A stretch of DNA of 64,000 bases from the NCBI RefSeq assembly GCF_000384315.1, contig NZ_ARVW01000001.1, positions 877,746 through 941,745 on the forward strand, read 5' to 3'. Of the stretch, positions 25,961 through 49,525 are shown piece after piece. The translations under genes were made by a program, and so were the position numbers. Under the pieces are notes generated by a model. The model had not been told where the DNA came from and did no database searches. It saw nothing but the letters and a program-made list of their open reading frames with translations. Position 1 is the stretch's first letter. Each line of letters begins with the position of its first letter. Origin of the DNA: Amycolatopsis nigrescens CSC17Ta-90 (GTDB taxonomy: Bacteria > Actinomycetota > Actinomycetes > Mycobacteriales > Pseudonocardiaceae).

Positions 25961-26462
25961 CGAAGAACACCGTCTCGCCGTCGCCCTGGAGGCGCACGTC
26001 GAAGCGGTAGCCGTCGTCGGCGGGGGTGGCGATCAGGGTGCCGCGCCGCTCCTCGGGCACCGACGCCAGCACCGGGTCCTCCGGGTCGTCGGCGAAGTAG
26101 ATCCGGGTGACCACGCGGCTGAGCAGTCCGCGCGCGAACACCGAGACGTCGATGTGCGGCGCCTGTCCCGGCAGCGCGCCGGGCAGCAGCGTGCAGATCC
26201 CGTACTCGCCGTTGTCGTCGGTCGGGCAGCGGCCGAAACCGCGGAAGTCGCCGCCCGGCTCGCCGGACTCCGGGAACCGACCGGACGGATCGGCCTGCCA
26301 GCTCTCCACCATCGCGTCCGGCACCGGGTTCCCGGCGCCGTCGAACACGGTGCCGCGGATCCAGATCGCGCCGGGCGTGCCCTCGGCCACCACCTCGGGG
26401 CCGTCCGGCCACGGCAGGCCGATCGACAGGTACGGCCCGACCGTCTGCGAAGGAGTGCTCAT
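25953..26462 (-). CDS. pcaG: protocatechuate 3,4-dioxygenase alpha subunit
   Basis: A 169-residue intradiol dioxygenase subunit with TPSQTVGPY at the N-terminus, a PVPDAMVESWQAD strand and FARGLLSRVVTRIYF. The iron ligands sit in the beta subunit; here the AHIHFS equivalent reads PHIDVSVFA, as expected for alpha. The ATG at 26462 overlaps the pcaH stop (ATGA). Confidence 0.93.
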   Translation of the reverse strand: MSTPSQTVGPYLSIGLPWPDGPEVVAEGTPGAIWIRGTVFDGAGNPVPDAMVESWQADPSGRFPESGEPGGDFRGFGRCPTDDNGEYGICTLLPGALPGQAPHIDVSVFARGLLSRVVTRIYFADDPEDPVLASVPEERRGTLIATPADDGYRFDVRLQGDGETVFFDV

Positions 26463-27196
26463 TCGTCGTGCTCCTCGTCCTCGAACACCGAAGCCTCCCG
26501 CCCGCGCAGCACGATGTCGAACTCGTAGGCCAGCGCCCAGGACGGCACGGTCCGCTCCAGGTCGAACCGCGAGATCATCCGCTTGCGGGCGTTCTCGTCC
26601 GGTACCGAGTTGAAGATCGGGTCCTGGTCGAACAGCGGGTCGTCCGGGAAGTACATCTGGGTCACCAGGCGCTGGGTGAAGGACGTGCCGAACACCGAGA
26701 AGTGGATGTGCGCCGGGCGCCAGGCGTTGTCGTGGTTCTGCCACGGGTACGCGCCGGGTTTGATGGTGGTGAACTGGTAGCGGCCGTCGCCGTCGGTCAG
26801 GGTGCGCCCGACCCCGTCGAAGTTGGGGTCCAGCGGCGACGGCCAGCGGTCCAGGGTGTGCTTGTAGCGCCCGCCCGCGTTGGCCTGCCAGATCTCCACC
26901 AGCGAGTCGCGCACCGGGCGACCGTCGCCGTCGAGCAGCCTGCCGGTCACCACGATCCGCTGCCCCTGCGGTTCGCCGGCGTGCCGTCGGGTCAGGTCGT
27001 TGTCGTGCTCGCCAAGCCTGCCCGGCCCGAGCAGCGGCCCGGTCAGCTCGGTGAGCCGGTGCGGCATCAGCACCAGCGGCTGTTTCGGGTGCCGCAGCGC
27101 GGTCGACCGGTAGCCCGGCGAGTCCAGCGGCGGGTGGGTGCCCGCCGGGTCGCGGCGGAAGCCCGGTGCCGGAACCTCGTTACCCATCACGCCCAT
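26459..27196 (-). CDS. pcaH: protocatechuate 3,4-dioxygenase beta subunit
   Basis: A 245-residue iron-binding subunit. The ferric ligands can be read as Tyr in NAGGRYKH, Tyr in KPGAYPWQN and two His in RPAHIHFSVFG. It cleaves protocatechuate to 3-carboxy-cis,cis-muconate. I chose the ATG at 27196 because GGAGG lies five bases upstream and the ATG overlaps the stop of the small ORF there (TGATG). A second ATG three codons later is possible. Confidence 0.93.
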   Translation of the reverse strand: MGVMGNEVPAPGFRRDPAGTHPPLDSPGYRSTALRHPKQPLVLMPHRLTELTGPLLGPGRLGEHDNDLTRRHAGEPQGQRIVVTGRLLDGDGRPVRDSLVEIWQANAGGRYKHTLDRWPSPLDPNFDGVGRTLTDGDGRYQFTTIKPGAYPWQNHDNAWRPAHIHFSVFGTSFTQRLVTQMYFPDDPLFDQDPIFNSVPDENARKRMISRFDLERTVPSWALAYEFDIVLRGREASVFEDEEHDE

Positions 27197-27282
27197 CACG
27201 CCTCCAGTGCTTTGCGGGACACCCGCACCCGGTCGGCGCGAGGACCGAGGCTCCGCGATTGTCCGGTCATCACGCCTCCAGT
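27194..27282. repeat. insert A: 59-bp element flanked by 15-bp direct repeats
   Basis: The 15-bp sequence CATCACGCCTCCAGT occurs perfectly at 27194-27208 and 27268-27282, a 74-bp period. Read leftward it contains the end of pcaF, its stop, a GGAGG ribosome site and an ATG. The 18-bp core GCGGGACACCCGCACCCG (27214-27231) recurs in insert B and at 48602-48619, and forms a small hairpin GCGGG-ACA-CCCGC. Confidence 0.85.
27196..27270 (-). CDS. 24-residue coupled small ORF A inserted between pcaF and pcaH
   Basis: ATG 27270-27268 overlaps the pcaF stop and TGA 27198-27196 overlaps the pcaH ATG. It has GGAGG five bases before the ATG. The peptide contains RADRVRVSRK and ends in ALEA, repeating the LEA end of PcaF. 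The ORF spans an insert of 59 bp bounded by identical 15-bp repeats (27194-27208 and 27268-27282). I know no family. It may be a real peptide or a by-product of an element that keeps translation coupled. Confidence 0.5.
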   Translation of the reverse strand: MTGQSRSLGPRADRVRVSRKALEA

Positions 27283-28448
27283 ACCACGGCGAGGCCCTGG
27301 CCGACCCCGATGCAGATGGCGGCGAGGCCCCATCCCCCGCCCCGGCGCCGCAGCTCGTGCGCGAGGGTGCCGAGGATCCGGCCGCCGGACGCGCCGAGCG
27401 GGTGGCCGATGGCGATGGCGCCGCCGTTGACGTTCACGATCTCCGGGTCCAGTTCGGGCCAGTCCGCGAGACAGGCCAGCGACTGGGCGGCGAAGGCCTC
27501 GTTCAGCTCCACCGCGGTCAGGTCGGACCAACCGATCCCGGCCCGTTCCAGCGCGATCTCGGCGGCGCGCACCGGCCCGATGCCGAACACGTCCGGGTCC
27601 ACCCCGGCCGCGCCCCGGCCGGCGATCCTGGCCAGCGGCTGCTTGCCGAGCCTGCTCGCGGTGACCTTGTCCCCGAGCAGCACCGCGGAGGCGCCGTCGT
27701 TCAGCGGTGACGAGTTGCCCGCGGTGACCGTGCCGTCGGGCCGGAAGGCCGGTTTGAGCCCGGCCAGCTTCTCCGGGGTGGAATCCGGGCGAATGCCCTC
27801 GTCGCGGTTCAGCTCGGTGCCGGGCACGGCGACCACGTGCGTGTCGTAGAAACCCTCGTCCCAGGCCCGCGCGGCGGCGCGGTGGCTGCGCACCGCGAAC
27901 TCGTCCTGCGCCTCGCGGCCGACGCGGTAGCGCTCAGCGAGCCGCTCGGTGGACTCGCCGAGCGAGATCGTCCACTGCTCCGGCATCGCCGGGTTGACCA
28001 TCCGCCAGCCGAGCGTGCTGGAGTGCAGGGTCTGCGGCGCGGCGGGGAAACCCTTCTCCGGCTTGAGCATCACCCATGGCGCCCGGCTCATCGACTCGAC
28101 GCCGCCGGCCACCACCAGCGACGCGTCGCCGACCGCGATCGCCCGGCTCGCCTGCATCACCGCGTCCAGGCCGGAACCGCAGAGCCGGTTGACCGTGGCA
28201 CCGGGCACCGAGGTCGGCCAGCCCGCGAGCAGGGCGGCCATCCTGGCCACGTTGCGGTTGTCCTCGCCGGCACCGTTGGCGTCGCCGAGGATCACCTCGT
28301 CCACTTCGGCCGGATCGAACTCGTTGCGCCCGCTCAGCGCGCGCAGGGTGTGCGCGGCCAGGTCGTCCGGGCGGATCCCGGACAGCGCGCCACCGTAGCG
28401 GCCGAACGGGCTCCGCACCGCGTCCAGTACGAACACTTCAGCAGTCAT
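27270..28448 (-). CDS. pcaF: beta-ketoadipyl-CoA thiolase
   Basis: A 392-residue thiolase. The acylated Cys is in NRLCGSGLDAV near residue 90, the active His in NGGAIAIGHPLGASG and the second Cys in ICIGVGQG; NEAFAAQ is also present. It splits beta-ketoadipyl-CoA into succinyl-CoA and acetyl-CoA. The ATG at 28448 has GAAGG upstream; a GTG two codons earlier is possible. The protein ends AVVLEA at the TGA shared with small ORF A. Confidence 0.94.
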   Translation of the reverse strand: MTAEVFVLDAVRSPFGRYGGALSGIRPDDLAAHTLRALSGRNEFDPAEVDEVILGDANGAGEDNRNVARMAALLAGWPTSVPGATVNRLCGSGLDAVMQASRAIAVGDASLVVAGGVESMSRAPWVMLKPEKGFPAAPQTLHSSTLGWRMVNPAMPEQWTISLGESTERLAERYRVGREAQDEFAVRSHRAAARAWDEGFYDTHVVAVPGTELNRDEGIRPDSTPEKLAGLKPAFRPDGTVTAGNSSPLNDGASAVLLGDKVTASRLGKQPLARIAGRGAAGVDPDVFGIGPVRAAEIALERAGIGWSDLTAVELNEAFAAQSLACLADWPELDPEIVNVNGGAIAIGHPLGASGGRILGTLAHELRRRGGGWGLAAICIGVGQGLAVVLEA

Positions 28449-28464
28449 GCTCACCTTCTTCGCT

Positions 28465-28542
28465 TCATGCGGCCTTCAGTGTCTTGCGGGACACCCGCAC
28501 CCGATCGGCCCGCATGACCGGGGCTTCGCCAGTTTCGGTCAT
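28465..28542 (-). CDS. 25-residue coupled small ORF B inserted between pcaJ and pcaF
   Basis: ATG 28542-28540 overlaps the pcaJ stop (ATGA), and the ORF ends at TGA 28467-28465, 16 bp before the pcaF ATG. GAAGG precedes the ATG. The peptide shares RADRVRVSRK with small ORF A and ends in TLKAA, repeating the LKAA end of PcaJ. Same arrangement and the same 74-bp period as ORF A, although the flanking repeats differ in sequence. Confidence 0.5.
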   Translation of the reverse strand: MTETGEAPVMRADRVRVSRKTLKAA

Positions 28543-28553
28543 GCGGCCTTCAG
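28465..28553. repeat. insert B: 59-bp element flanked by 15-bp direct repeats
   Basis: TCATGCGGCCTTCAG occurs at 28465-28479 and 28539-28553, again a 74-bp period. The core GCGGGACACCCGCACCCG is at 28486-28503. The two elements agree at nearly all of about 29 bases around the core and diverge elsewhere, while each set of flanking repeats matches its own host gene end. Confidence 0.85.
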
Positions 28554-29306
28554 CGCACGCAGCACCGCCAGCTCTTCGCCGGTGGGCGCGGGTGTGGTCG
28601 CGAGGTTTTCGGCGACCTTGAGCCGCCAGCCGGTGGCCGCGCGCACCTGCTCCGGCTCGACGCCGGGGTGCACCTCGGTGAGCGTCAGCTCGCTGGTCTC
28701 CGGGTCGGGCCGCAGCAGCCCGAGGTCGGTGACCACCAGGGTCGGCCCGGCGCCGGGCAGGCCGAGCCGCGCGCGGTCGCCCTTGCCGGAGCCGTGGCCG
28801 AACGAGGTGATGAAGTCCACCTGCTCGACGAAGGCGCGGGTGTTCTGCCGGAGCACGATGAACACCTCGCGGCAGGACGCGGCGATTTCCGGCGCGCCAC
28901 CGGCACCGGGCAGGCGCACCTTCGGGTCGTCGTAGTCGGAGCCGATCACCGTGGTGTTGATGTTGCCGAACCGGTCCAGCTGGGCGGCGCCGAGAAAACC
29001 GACGTCGATCCGGCCGGGCTGGAGCCAGTAGTTGAACACCTCCGGCACGCTGACCACCGCGTCCGCGGTCTCCGCCAGCTCACCGTCCCCAATGGACAGT
29101 GGCAGCCGGGTCGGCTTGGCGCCGAGGCAGCCGGACTCGTAGATCAGCGCGAGCTTCGGCGCGTGCGTGCGCCGGGCGAGGTTGGCCGCCGTGCTGGGCA
29201 GGCCGATGCCCACGAAACACGACATTCCGTCCCCCAGCGCCCTTGCCGCGGCCACGCTCATCATTTCGTCGGCACTGTAATTCCCGTCGACACTGTAGTC
29301 GATCAT
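28539..29306 (-). CDS. pcaJ: 3-oxoadipate CoA-transferase subunit B
   Basis: A 255-residue class I CoA-transferase subunit. The catalytic Glu lies in LIYESGCLGAKP near residue 57, and GFLGAAQLDRFGNINTT is typical of the beta subunit. With PcaI it moves CoA from succinyl-CoA to beta-ketoadipate. It overlaps pcaI by ATGA. Its last residues, LRALKAA, are duplicated in the following insert. Confidence 0.93.
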   Translation of the reverse strand: MIDYSVDGNYSADEMMSVAAARALGDGMSCFVGIGLPSTAANLARRTHAPKLALIYESGCLGAKPTRLPLSIGDGELAETADAVVSVPEVFNYWLQPGRIDVGFLGAAQLDRFGNINTTVIGSDYDDPKVRLPGAGGAPEIAASCREVFIVLRQNTRAFVEQVDFITSFGHGSGKGDRARLGLPGAGPTLVVTDLGLLRPDPETSELTLTEVHPGVEPEQVRAATGWRLKVAENLATTPAPTGEELAVLRALKAA

Positions 29307-30112
29307 GCCGTGACCCCCACCGTTTCAGCGAGCCACTTCTTGAACTCGGCACGGTCCCGGCTGATCGCGTCCCAGTCCTGGTAGGCCGAATTGTCCCGTT
29401 CGTAGTAGCCGGCCGCATAGGACGGTCTCGCCCCGGACGGCACCTCGGCCACCGCGGTCACCGCCCAGCCCGGCAGCACCATCGCGCCCGGCCGCGGTTC
29501 GAGCTCGTCCACGATCTCCTCCACCGTCACCAGTGCGCGCTTCGCCGCGAGCACGGCTTCCTTCTGCACGCCGGTGATCCCGGTGAACTGCACGCTACCG
29601 GCGCGATCCGCGCGCTGGGCGTGCACGATGGTGACGTCCGGGTTGAGCGCGGGCACCGCGGTGAGCCGCTCGCCGGTGAACGGGCAGCTGATCGGCTTGA
29701 TGGTGTCGGTGTGCTCGGCCAGGTCCGTGCCGGTGTAGCCGCGCAGCACCGCGAACGGCAGCCCGGACGCGCCCGCGACATAGCGGTTGGCCATCCCGGC
29801 GTGGCTGTGCTCCTCGATTTCCAGCGGCACCGGCCAGGAGTTCTGCACCGCGTCGCGGAACCGGTGCAGCGAGCCGACTCCGGGGTTGCCGCCCCAGGAG
29901 AAGATCAGCTTCCGCGCGCAGCCGGCACCGATCAGCTGGTCGTAGACGATGTCCGGGGTCATCCTGGCCAGCGTCAGCTCCCGGCGGCCCTGGCGGATGA
30001 TCTCGTGGCCGGCCGCGACCGGGATGAGGTGGGTGAAACCCTCCAGCGCCACCAGATCCCCGTCGTGCACCAGCTCGCGCACCCCTTCGGCCAGTGAAAC
30101 GAGCTCGGCCAT
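29303..30112 (-). CDS. pcaI: 3-oxoadipate CoA-transferase subunit A
   Basis: A 269-residue class I CoA-transferase alpha subunit with the oxyanion-hole motif SWGGNPGVGSL near residue 92. It is the first gene of the leftward pca operon; the promoter must lie in the 85-bp gap before the divergent dehydrogenase gene, where there is an AT-rich palindrome. Confidence 0.93.
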   Translation of the reverse strand: MAELVSLAEGVRELVHDGDLVALEGFTHLIPVAAGHEIIRQGRRELTLARMTPDIVYDQLIGAGCARKLIFSWGGNPGVGSLHRFRDAVQNSWPVPLEIEEHSHAGMANRYVAGASGLPFAVLRGYTGTDLAEHTDTIKPISCPFTGERLTAVPALNPDVTIVHAQRADRAGSVQFTGITGVQKEAVLAAKRALVTVEEIVDELEPRPGAMVLPGWAVTAVAEVPSGARPSYAAGYYERDNSAYQDWDAISRDRAEFKKWLAETVGVTA

Positions 30113-47408: not shown

Positions 47409-48587
47409 ATGACTGCTGCACGCGAATACGACGTGGTCGTCTTCGGGGCGACCGGGTTCACCGGCGGCATGACCGCCGAGTACCTGGCCCGCGCCGCGCC
47501 ACCCGGCTTTCGCTTGGCGCTGGCCGGGCGCAACCGGGGCAAGCTCGAAGCCGTGCGCGCCCGGCTGGCCGCGCTCGATCCGGCCTGCGCGGAGCTGCCG
47601 CTGCTGACCGCGGACATCACCGACCGGGACTCGATCCTGGCAGTCGCACGGGCCACCAAGGTGGTGATCACCACGGTCGGGCCGTACGCGCTGTACGGCG
47701 CGCCGCTGGTGGCGGCCTGCGCCGAGGCGGGCACCGATTACGTCGACCTGTGCGGTGAGCCGGAGTTCGTCGACCGCACCTACCTGAACCAACATGCGAA
47801 GGCGCGGTCGAGCGGGGCGCGGATCGTGCACGCCTGCGGGTTCGACTCGATCCCCTACGACCTCGGGGTGCTCTACACCGTGCGGCAGCTTCCCTCGGAC
47901 GTACCGCTCCAGGTCCGCGGGCAGGTCCGCATCGGCGCGACGCTCTCCGGCGGCACCTTCGCCAGCGCCCTGACCGCAGCCGCCAGGCCGGTGGCGATGT
48001 GGCGGGCGGCGAAGGAACGCGCCAATGCCGAGCCACGCCCCGAAGGGCGCCGGGCGCGGGCACTGACCGGTAGGCCGCGTCGCGACCACGAAACCGGGCA
48101 CTGGCTGGTGCCGCTGCCGAACCTGGACCCGCAGATCGTCGCGCGCTCGGCGGCCGCGCTCGAGGAGTACGGACCGGACTTCGGCTACACGCACTACGCC
48201 GCGGTCAAGCGGCTGCCGACCGTCCTCGCCGGCGCGGCGGGCGTGGCGGCCATGGCCGCCCTCGCGCAGGTCCCGCCCGTCCGCAACGCGCTGGGAAACC
48301 TGCGCAAGCCCGGCGAAGGGCCGAGCCCGGAGCGGCGGGCGCAGTCCTGGTTCGAGGTGAGGTTCGTCGGCGAGGGCGGCGGGCAGCGGGTGGTCACCGA
48401 GGTCTCCGGCGGCGACCCCGGCTACGACGAGAGCGCGAAGATGCTCGCCGAGTCGGCCCTGTGCCTGGCCGTGGACGATCTACCGGAGACGGCCGGACAG
48501 CTCACCACCGCGGTCGCCATGGGCGACGCGCTCGTCGATCGCCTGACCAAAGCCGGCATCACCTTCCGCACCCTGCCCGGCTCGTGA
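47409..48587 (+). CDS. saccharopine dehydrogenase-family / trans-acting enoyl reductase-like protein
   Basis: A 392-residue protein with an N-terminal Rossmann domain (VVVFGATGFTGGMTAEYLA), TVGPYALYGAPLVAACAEAGTDYVDLCGE and HACGFDSIPYDLG. These are the landmarks of the mycobacterial Rv2449c/Rv2953 group; Rv2953 is an enoyl reductase acting with polyketide synthases in lipid synthesis. Its stop TGA is supplied by the following palindrome. Confidence 0.82.
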   Translation: MTAAREYDVVVFGATGFTGGMTAEYLARAAPPGFRLALAGRNRGKLEAVRARLAALDPACAELPLLTADITDRDSILAVARATKVVITTVGPYALYGAPLVAACAEAGTDYVDLCGEPEFVDRTYLNQHAKARSSGARIVHACGFDSIPYDLGVLYTVRQLPSDVPLQVRGQVRIGATLSGGTFASALTAAARPVAMWRAAKERANAEPRPEGRRARALTGRPRRDHETGHWLVPLPNLDPQIVARSAAALEEYGPDFGYTHYAAVKRLPTVLAGAAGVAAMAALAQVPPVRNALGNLRKPGEGPSPERRAQSWFEVRFVGEGGGQRVVTEVSGGDPGYDESAKMLAESALCLAVDDLPETAGQLTTAVAMGDALVDRLTKAGITFRTLPGS

Positions 48588-48653
48588 GTGACGGTGTCTA
48601 AGCGGGACACCCGCACCCGAGGTGTTGCCCCCAGCAACGCTTTTCACTCACGA
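48582..48653. repeat. palindrome family 1 copy interrupted by the pca-insert core
   Basis: Ends TCGTGAGTGA (48582-48591) and TCACTCACGA (48644-48653) match the hairpins at 4627 and 22427. The left arm is broken after GAGTGA by about 31 bp that contain GCGGGACACCCGCACCCG (48602-48619), the core of pca inserts A and B. The ends provide stop codons for both convergent genes (48585-48587 on +, 48644-48646 on -). Confidence 0.7.
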
Positions 48654-49525
48654 CCCTGACCGCGGGACTCGACCTGCTTGGCGACGCGCTGGGTGTAGTC
48701 GGCACGTCCGGCGGGATCGATTGACGTGAGGGCGCGGTTGTCGCCGATCAGCCGGCGACCGAGGTTCATCAGCGGTTCCGGGGTGAGCGCGGCCAGCAGG
48801 TCCCAGGCGCCGACGTAGCCGGGCACCGGGATCTCCGCCCGCCGGGTGCGGCAGCTGCGCAGCACCGCGGCGGCGATGTCCTCCGGATCCACCGTCGGCA
48901 GGCCCCCGCCCAGCGGCACCCCGGACGCCAGCCCGGTCCGCACCGCGCTGGGCAGCACCGCGCTCACGCTCACCCCGGTGCCCGCGTACTCCCGCCGGAC
49001 CGCGGCGGTCAGCCCGACCGCGGCGAACTTGCTCGCGTTGTACACCGCCATCCCCGGCAACGGAATCTTGCCGGCCATGGAGGCGATGTTGACCACGTGC
49101 CCGCGGCCACGGGCGATCATCGCGGGCAGCACCAGCCGCATCCCGTGGATCGGGCCCCAGACGTTGACGTCCATCGTGGTCCGGCTGAGCGCGTCCGCCT
49201 CGGTCAGGAAGTCGCCGAGCGGCATCACCCCGGCGTTGTTCACCAGCACGTCGATCCGGCCGAACTCGGCGAGCACCGCGGAGCTGAACGCCTCGAAGGA
49301 CGCCCGCGCCGAAACGTCCACTGTGTACGGACGCGTGGCCGGACCGATCGCCTTCGCGGCCTCCTCGGCTGCCGCGCGGTCCAGGTCGCCGAGGCAGACG
49401 GTCGCGCCGCGCGCCGCGAACGCCTCGGCGGTGGCGCGGCCGATCCCGCGCCCGCCGCCGGTGACCACCACGACCGCGCCGGCCAGGTCGATCGCCGGGT
49501 AACGGTGGGAGAAAGGCAGTTTCAC
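48644..49525 (-). CDS. short-chain dehydrogenase
   Basis: A 293-residue SDR: VVTGGGRGIGRATAEAF, NNAGVMPLGDF, and IASMAGKIPLPGMAVYNASKFAAVG. It has an extended C-terminus like the SDR at 46353. GTG start overlapping the monooxygenase stop (GTGA), so the two are cotranscribed. It may oxidise the product or substrate alcohol of the monooxygenase. Confidence 0.87.
   Translation of the reverse strand: MKLPFSHRYPAIDLAGAVVVVTGGGRGIGRATAEAFAARGATVCLGDLDRAAAEEAAKAIGPATRPYTVDVSARASFEAFSSAVLAEFGRIDVLVNNAGVMPLGDFLTEADALSRTTMDVNVWGPIHGMRLVLPAMIARGRGHVVNIASMAGKIPLPGMAVYNASKFAAVGLTAAVRREYAGTGVSVSAVLPSAVRTGLASGVPLGGGLPTVDPEDIAAAVLRSCRTRRAEIPVPGYVGAWDLLAALTPEPLMNLGRRLIGDNRALTSIDPAGRADYTQRVAKQVESRGQGRE

Follow-up and report, generated by a model that had tools for sequence, protein, structure and literature searches.

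Twin inserts in the pca operon of Amycolatopsis nigrescens are probably copies of a dispersed, MIRU-like element at doubled start/stop junctions

Two junctions of the pca operon of Amycolatopsis nigrescens CSC17Ta-90 carry short inserts of the same period, each of which opens a small reading frame between two genes, and the question is what these inserts are and how an operon accommodates them. The window, i.e. the whole stretch of 64,000 nucleotides that was analysed (contig NZ_ARVW01000001.1, positions 877,746 to 941,745), carries the operon on the - strand. Pfam matches comprised a thiolase (read as pcaF), two CoA-transferase subunits (pcaI, pcaJ) and dioxygenases (pcaH, pcaG), and the best named relatives of pcaF came from Qaidamihabitans, Amycolatopsis and Prauserella. 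A sequence-only reading of this DNA had described twin inserts flanked by perfect 15-bp direct repeats with a period of 74, which was confirmed at both junctions, with the repeat CATCACGCCTCCAGT at pcaF/pcaH (element A) and TCATGCGGCCTTCAG at pcaJ/pcaF (element B). The two inserts have a 41-nt stretch in common at 88% identity. The small ORFs of 24 and 25 codons were found as described there, and the overlap of the stop of the insert A frame with the ATG of the next gene was borne out (TGA with ATG 27196 of pcaH). At pcaJ/pcaF the relay has two steps, because a frame of 5 codons (ATG 28468 to TGA 28451) begins at the first start past the insert and overlaps GTG 28454 of pcaF. All features are listed in Table 1, where T1 and T2 are the two copies of the doubled junction and T' is an arm complementary to T1.

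Table 1. Positions of the elements and their parts within the window
Feature	Position	Strand	Remark
T1 of element B (CTGAAGGCCGCATGA), comprising the 3' end of pcaJ, a ribosome site, a stop and the relay start	28539..28553	-	
Relay micro-ORF B, 25 codons, TGA overlapping ATG of T2	28465..28542	-	
T' arm of element B, 11 contiguous Watson-Crick pairs with T1	28507..28520	-	coordinates from letters
Core CGGGTGCGGGTGTCCCGC of element B, including a 5-bp hairpin invariant in 36 aligned copies	28486..28503	-	
T2 of element B, 15-bp duplicate of T1	28465..28479	-	
Second relay frame, 5 codons (ATG AAG CGA AGA AGG TGA)	28451..28468	-	direct reading
T1 of element A (ACTGGAGGCGTGATG), comprising the 3' end of pcaF, a ribosome site, a stop and the relay start	27268..27282	-	
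Relay micro-ORF A, 24 codons; TGA overlaps ATG 27196 of pcaH by one base	27196..27270	-	
T' arm of element A; with T1 11 Watson-Crick pairs, 1 G-U, 1 mismatch	27235..27248	-	coordinates from letters
Core of element A	27214..27231	-	
T2 of element A, 15-bp duplicate of T1	27194..27208	-	
Type 3 element (L008), core 48602-48619 inside palindrome GTCGTGAGTGA...TCACTCACGAG	48581..48654	-	ends from letters

The 18-nt core was found exactly at 27214, 28486 and 48602 of the window, and at up to 3 mismatches these remained the 3 matches, against 0.91 expected and with 3 reached in 8 of 100 shuffles. Recurrence in the window alone is moderately unusual; the whole genome was decisive. The 9.1-Mb genome holds 65 exact cores, 10 with one mismatch and 16 with two, so that the proposed search of the genome for further copies of a spreading element returned 91 matches at up to 2 mismatches, compared to 2 for a reversed control pattern. 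Copies were compared side by side as 80 distinct rows, for which copies with identical flanks were collapsed and ten of the sixteen two-mismatch copies were left out. Three element types were found to have the core in common, of which the pca inserts are type 2. Type 1 (45 rows) runs CTGAG, GGGGGCATGC hairpin, core, AAGATT and then host CTGnn; it is a 69-bp hairpin unit, some copies being tandem at 69 bases, and in 14 of the 45 rows the TGA within the left CTGAG serves as the stop of an upstream open frame. Type 1 copies in this genome were mostly near-identical and placed just 5' of host CTGnn; they look like a recent burst. Type 3 holds the core inside a palindrome GTCGTGAGTGA...TCACTCACGAC (12 rows, one two-mismatch row being without the palindrome). 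The recurrence at 48602 that the sequence-only reading had pointed out was therefore right as to the exact core, but the copy belongs to this different hairpin element and is not of type 2; neither the T1:T' hairpin nor the presence of one core in three element types had been part of that reading.

In type 3 loci (L005, L010, L024 and others, and L208-L225 of genome G070) a long palindrome GTCGTGAGTG...CACTCACGAC was observed to hold the core, either in its loop or in an arm, and a palindrome of similar kind, without the core, stands in the flank of L111. G070 gave 50 core matches, and the 18 examined were mostly of the type 3 kind. Genome G099 (2.4 Mb, another family) was seen to hold the core, at up to 1 mismatch, in quite different hairpin-like contexts (L232, L237, L242, L247, L252, L257).

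Type 2, with 16 copies in the Amycolatopsis genome, follows the layout T1 - loop - T' - GAC - core - AAGACAC - T2. T1 and T2 each contain a ribosome site (GGAGG or similar) and usually a stop and a start codon, and T' lies directly before the core, complementary to T1. The fit of T' was 8.48 for its own T1 as against 5.21 for the T1 of other copies (sd 1.44), and 6.26 as against 4.98 for its own T2, both over 69 rows that include four non-type-2 rows (L001, L012, L021, L116) dropped from later counts; on average, T' fits T1 better than T2 (8.48 vs 6.26). Base pairs between T1 and T' in 65 copies, scored with equal treatment of G-U and A-C, numbered 708 Watson-Crick, 66 G-U, 9 A-C and 34 other. 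With one copy per locus, 51 G-U stood against 7 A-C (50 loci, p = 2.4e-9), G-U being ahead in 34 of the 50 loci and behind in 5. Decay at the level of DNA would yield G-U and A-C equally, and the constraint would for this reason act on the sense RNA. Covariation was detected at all 11 pairs in a structure-blind MAFFT alignment of 36 copies (score 0.426, versus 0.207 for shuffled and 0.06-0.11 for slid partners), and ATG versus GTG starts were matched by U versus C in T' (pair 16-47: AU 20, GC 12). For the predicted RNA, these counts show a pairing of T1 with T' that is site-specific and covarying. The hairpin within the core, GCGGG-UGU-CCCGC, was invariant among the 36 aligned copies and therefore affords no proof by covariation.

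Single-strand folding of 44 loci gave a T2 more open than T1 in 25 (p = 0.12, not significant), and 'T2 open, T1 closed' was rejected as a general rule. In element A the minimum-energy single-strand fold has T' paired with T2 instead of T1. In type 3 stems the ratio of G-U to A-C was 13 to 5 in the Amycolatopsis genome and 6 to 17 in G070, so a G-U excess there was discarded as inconsistent; type 1 stems, with 9 G-U and 1 A-C, were too few to judge.

Reading frames were then scored from the T1 start, a frame end within -8 to +6 of the T2 start being counted as a relay. A first set of 54 copies with recognisable T1 and T2 starts was reduced to 40 loci with one copy each, both pca copies forming one locus, and the frame ended on the T2 start in 35 of these, compared to 0 and 1 for the other two frames. 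A second set consisted of 60 loci found with covariance model R1, built from 36 copies; 47 were scorable, 39 of them in frame (other frames 0 and 1), and an upstream frame of at least 60 codons stopped on T1 in 38 of the 47. R1 favours paired arms, and this set thus supports the relay and not the pairing. The rule was broken in 5 of 40 and 8 of 47 loci, and three copies of the Amycolatopsis genome (L028, L111, L121) have a T1 without a start codon. Copies with an ATGA overlap show spacings of 74, 77, 71, 80 or 83, and those with the longer overlap ATGGCTGA show 73, 76 or 85 and not 74, a shift that the frame requires. An arrangement suited to translational coupling at stop/start junctions, as the sequence-only reading had proposed, was in this way found to be kept well beyond the two pca sites.

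What is encoded varies. The distance from T1 start to core was spread over all three frames (21, 16 and 3 of 40 loci), and the core is accordingly translated as DRVRVSR, RPGAGVP or PTGCGCPA. The shared peptide RADRVRVSRK had been taken as a possible mark of a family of conserved coupled micro-proteins, and the DRVRVSR frame is indeed the commonest (21 of 40 and 34 of 47). However, 19 of 40 and 13 of 47 copies use another frame and encode another peptide, most of them keeping the relay, and the letters that are conserved belong to the DNA core, present in other element types too. With the core translated in any of three frames and the relay nevertheless preserved, it is not the peptide that is conserved; a functional peptide is largely refuted and, as an explanation, hardly credible. 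The predicted relay frames, rather, are shown by both sets to end on the next start whatever peptide is encoded.

The neighbours of the 16 type 2 copies in the Amycolatopsis genome were varied operon genes, many of them read as gltB-gltD, a CoA-transferase pair, or a sensor kinase and regulator (names read from translations). The junction read as gltB-gltD was seen to bear the element in several genomes, and twice in this one (L009, L119, L177, L202, L207, L236; probably L362, L382, L396), with a spacing adapted to the 8-base overlap ATGGCTGA.

Orthologous junctions were compared with and without the insert. With up to 2 mismatches allowed, no core lay 300 bases or less from either end of pcaF in any of the 80 named relatives, one locus of which (L073) was cut off downstream, and none lay at the pcaF ends in the 29 congener loci examined after 79 congeners had been searched. 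The lone core among those 29 loci was that of G021, at the pcaH-pcaG junction. This junction (as read) was observed to be filled in both G021 (L178) and G047 (L227), with differing loops and arms, which may represent either independent insertions or an old insertion much changed. Locus L345, filled in G719, was empty in 5 of 8 congeners (genus g192), the other 3 giving no flanking match, and in the empty sites the flanks overlap by 15-19 bases, i.e. there is one junction copy. L376, also filled in G719, was empty in 8 of 8 congeners. Congeners were 76-89% identical at best, so that these empty sites do not come from the same species. A small element that spreads at stop/start junctions, as had been suggested from the two inserts, is in line with the many copies together with sites that are empty in relatives.

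The comparison of filled and empty L345 supports, as read from the flanks, an insertion that doubled the junction. A target duplication like that of a MITE would give what this set shows, one junction copy in the empty sites and two in the filled one; an exact T1/T2 repeat of at least 12 bases was kept in 20 of 50 loci, some of them tandem arrays, and was reached in 2 of 400 mismatched T1/T2 pairings. By eye, type 2 shows no terminal inverted repeats, the inverted repeat (T1:T') being internal. Simple target duplication is weakened because the exact repeat is found in only those 20 of 50 loci and because in several copies (L020, L029, L145, L146) T1 equals the family consensus and T2 deviates. 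That T' is copied exactly from the target on insertion was not supported, for L131, L151 and the pcaF/pcaH copy have identical T1 and T2, yet a mismatched or bulged T'.

At up to 1 mismatch the core was matched in 77 of 150 genomes, the Amycolatopsis genome included, compared to 7 matches for the reversed control; isolated core matches in distant genomes appear to be chance hits. Extended at its 3' side, the core was found in 3 of 394 genomes of the class, again with the Amycolatopsis genome included. Model R1 gave matches in 106 of 249 genomes of the family (this genome included), spread over 31 of the 46 genera; the counts vary a great deal inside a genus and are lower bounds per genome, as 18 candidates were scored in each. 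The type 2 element family most likely belongs to Pseudonocardiaceae. Arrays of 2 to 5 tandem units, spaced 72-76 bases, were present in several genomes (L189, L190, L191, L245, L368, L379) and possibly vary between strains.

The closest described analogue is the mycobacterial interspersed repetitive unit (MIRU; Supply et al. 1997, cited in PMC12548453); according to that 2025 review, MIRUs seem to be mobile, have start codons as insertion sites and bring an internal frame into coupling with the gene (PMC12548453). As far as this account goes, the likeness lies in small repeats dispersed over start/stop junctions in an actinobacterial lineage, with an internal frame coupled to the next gene, and single and tandem copies occur in both. 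A putative MIRU motif, with up to 1 mismatch allowed, was matched in 75 of the 118 genomes searched from the genus of G096, probably Mycobacterium, against 8 matches for the reversed control, with repeated spacings of 51-56 bases; 6 of the 7 scorable among 19 copies passed the relay test. Type 2 elements share with MIRU the dispersed repeat between operon genes and a frame bridging upstream stop and downstream start. They differ in that the doubled junction takes in the ribosome site and that the core is also found in other hairpin elements; in type 2 an inner arm pairs with the start region of its own site. R1 was run on 16 loci, 15 of them with the MIRU motif, and gave no match at the motif, the best match (19.2 bits, E 0.004) lying away from it. 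From these comparisons type 2 looks MIRU-like but of a family apart, marked by its site-matched hairpin and by a core that other elements share. The statement that no description was known thus held in part: MIRUs are a known analogue (PMC12548453), and no sequence relation to MIRU was found, either with R1 or with the extended core, present in those 3 of 394 class genomes. No published description of the type 2 family was found in the literature searched (most subscription papers lying outside it), and no terms for such an element were found in PMC10969869 and PMC3733652.

Other small repeats resemble parts of the picture. Enterobacterial RU, Correia/NEMIS and RUP are, like type 2, non-autonomous small mobile repeats, some with reading frames, but they are described as intergenic or gene-fused and not as start/stop relays (PMC2229807, PMC2759123). 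REP/BIME and IS200/605-derived palindromic repeats are short, many-copy hairpin repeats, and types 1 and 3 look like them; a difference is that the Y1 transposase (PF01797) was found in 0 of the 10 genomes tested here, the same search being positive in 5 of 14 control genomes. A Y1/RAYT transposase was on these grounds rejected as mobiliser, and the REP/RAYT route would therefore be without its enzyme in those 10 genomes. Carriage by phage or plasmid was also rejected: 6 viral contigs held the bare core and none the surrounding element, and the 89-base element B was matched by none of 72,556 plasmid and 50,697 phage records. An Rfam search of positions 26000-30000 gave nothing at the elements and one sub-threshold snoRNA match elsewhere.

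The twin inserts are thus read as two copies of a dispersed MIRU-like mobile element that relays ribosomes at doubled operon junctions, a reading to which a probability of about 0.78 is assigned. At the level of sequence comparison it is shown that the element is dispersed, that one lineage has it at sites which are empty in relatives, and that the junction is doubled. A ribosome finishing the upstream gene would open the T1:T' hairpin, re-initiate at the T1 start and translate some 25 codons of arbitrary peptide, after which it would stop on T2 and re-initiate on the downstream gene; in the pcaJ/pcaF copy the second, 5-codon frame would hand the relay on to the GTG of pcaF. Such a relay would make insertion nearly neutral for the operon. 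The T1:T' hairpin would bar free ribosomes from the relay start, and it may also permit switching between T1 and T2. The core, common to three hairpin classes, would be the piece recognised by a mobilising or RNA-binding factor.

The elements could instead be pure DNA parasites, MITE- or REP-like, whose position and frame come from the loss of other insertions and whose RNA structure is irrelevant. Types 1 and 3, with the same core, are mostly intergenic (32 of 45 and 12 of 12 rows, called by a crude GC3 rule, with 13 type 1 rows inside an open frame), and the type 3 stems lack a consistent G-U excess, both of which would suit a parasite. It is the type 2 stems, with covariation at all 11 pairs and an excess of G-U on the sense strand, that tell against it, as does the absence of PF01797 in the 10 genomes, and this alternative is unlikely, though one to be taken seriously; loss of harmful insertions may all the same contribute to the frame rule.

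A regulatory switch, in which the anti-start arm T' pairs with T1 or T2 and so tunes or attenuates the downstream gene, would draw on the same hairpin. The partial fit of T' to its own T2, the minimum-energy fold of the pcaF/pcaH copy and the element at the gltB-gltD junction (as read) of several genomes speak for it. Against these stand the better average fit of T' to T1, a G-U over A-C excess that is weaker for T2 (54 to 21) than for T1 (51 to 7), and the varied operon genes next to the 16 copies, and the switch is regarded as doubtful. Quite improbable is a role of T' as a guide, by which RNA or a single strand of the element would find sites by pairing, or the arm would be rewritten from the landing site; if true, it would be a minimal RNA-guided spreading element with a structure imprinted by its target.

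For the relay element preferred here, the site-matched hairpin raises the question of whether the arm is copied from, chosen by, or adapted to the landing site. Its tandem arrays might serve strain typing. The variable core frames amount to a natural experiment in which the relay is conserved and the peptide is not, and re-initiation as the function of a micro-ORF is therefore directly testable. The findings suggest a second origin of MIRU-like relay elements, in another actinobacterial lineage and with no homology that could be detected, and the coupled start/stop junction may therefore be a general niche for tiny mobile DNA.
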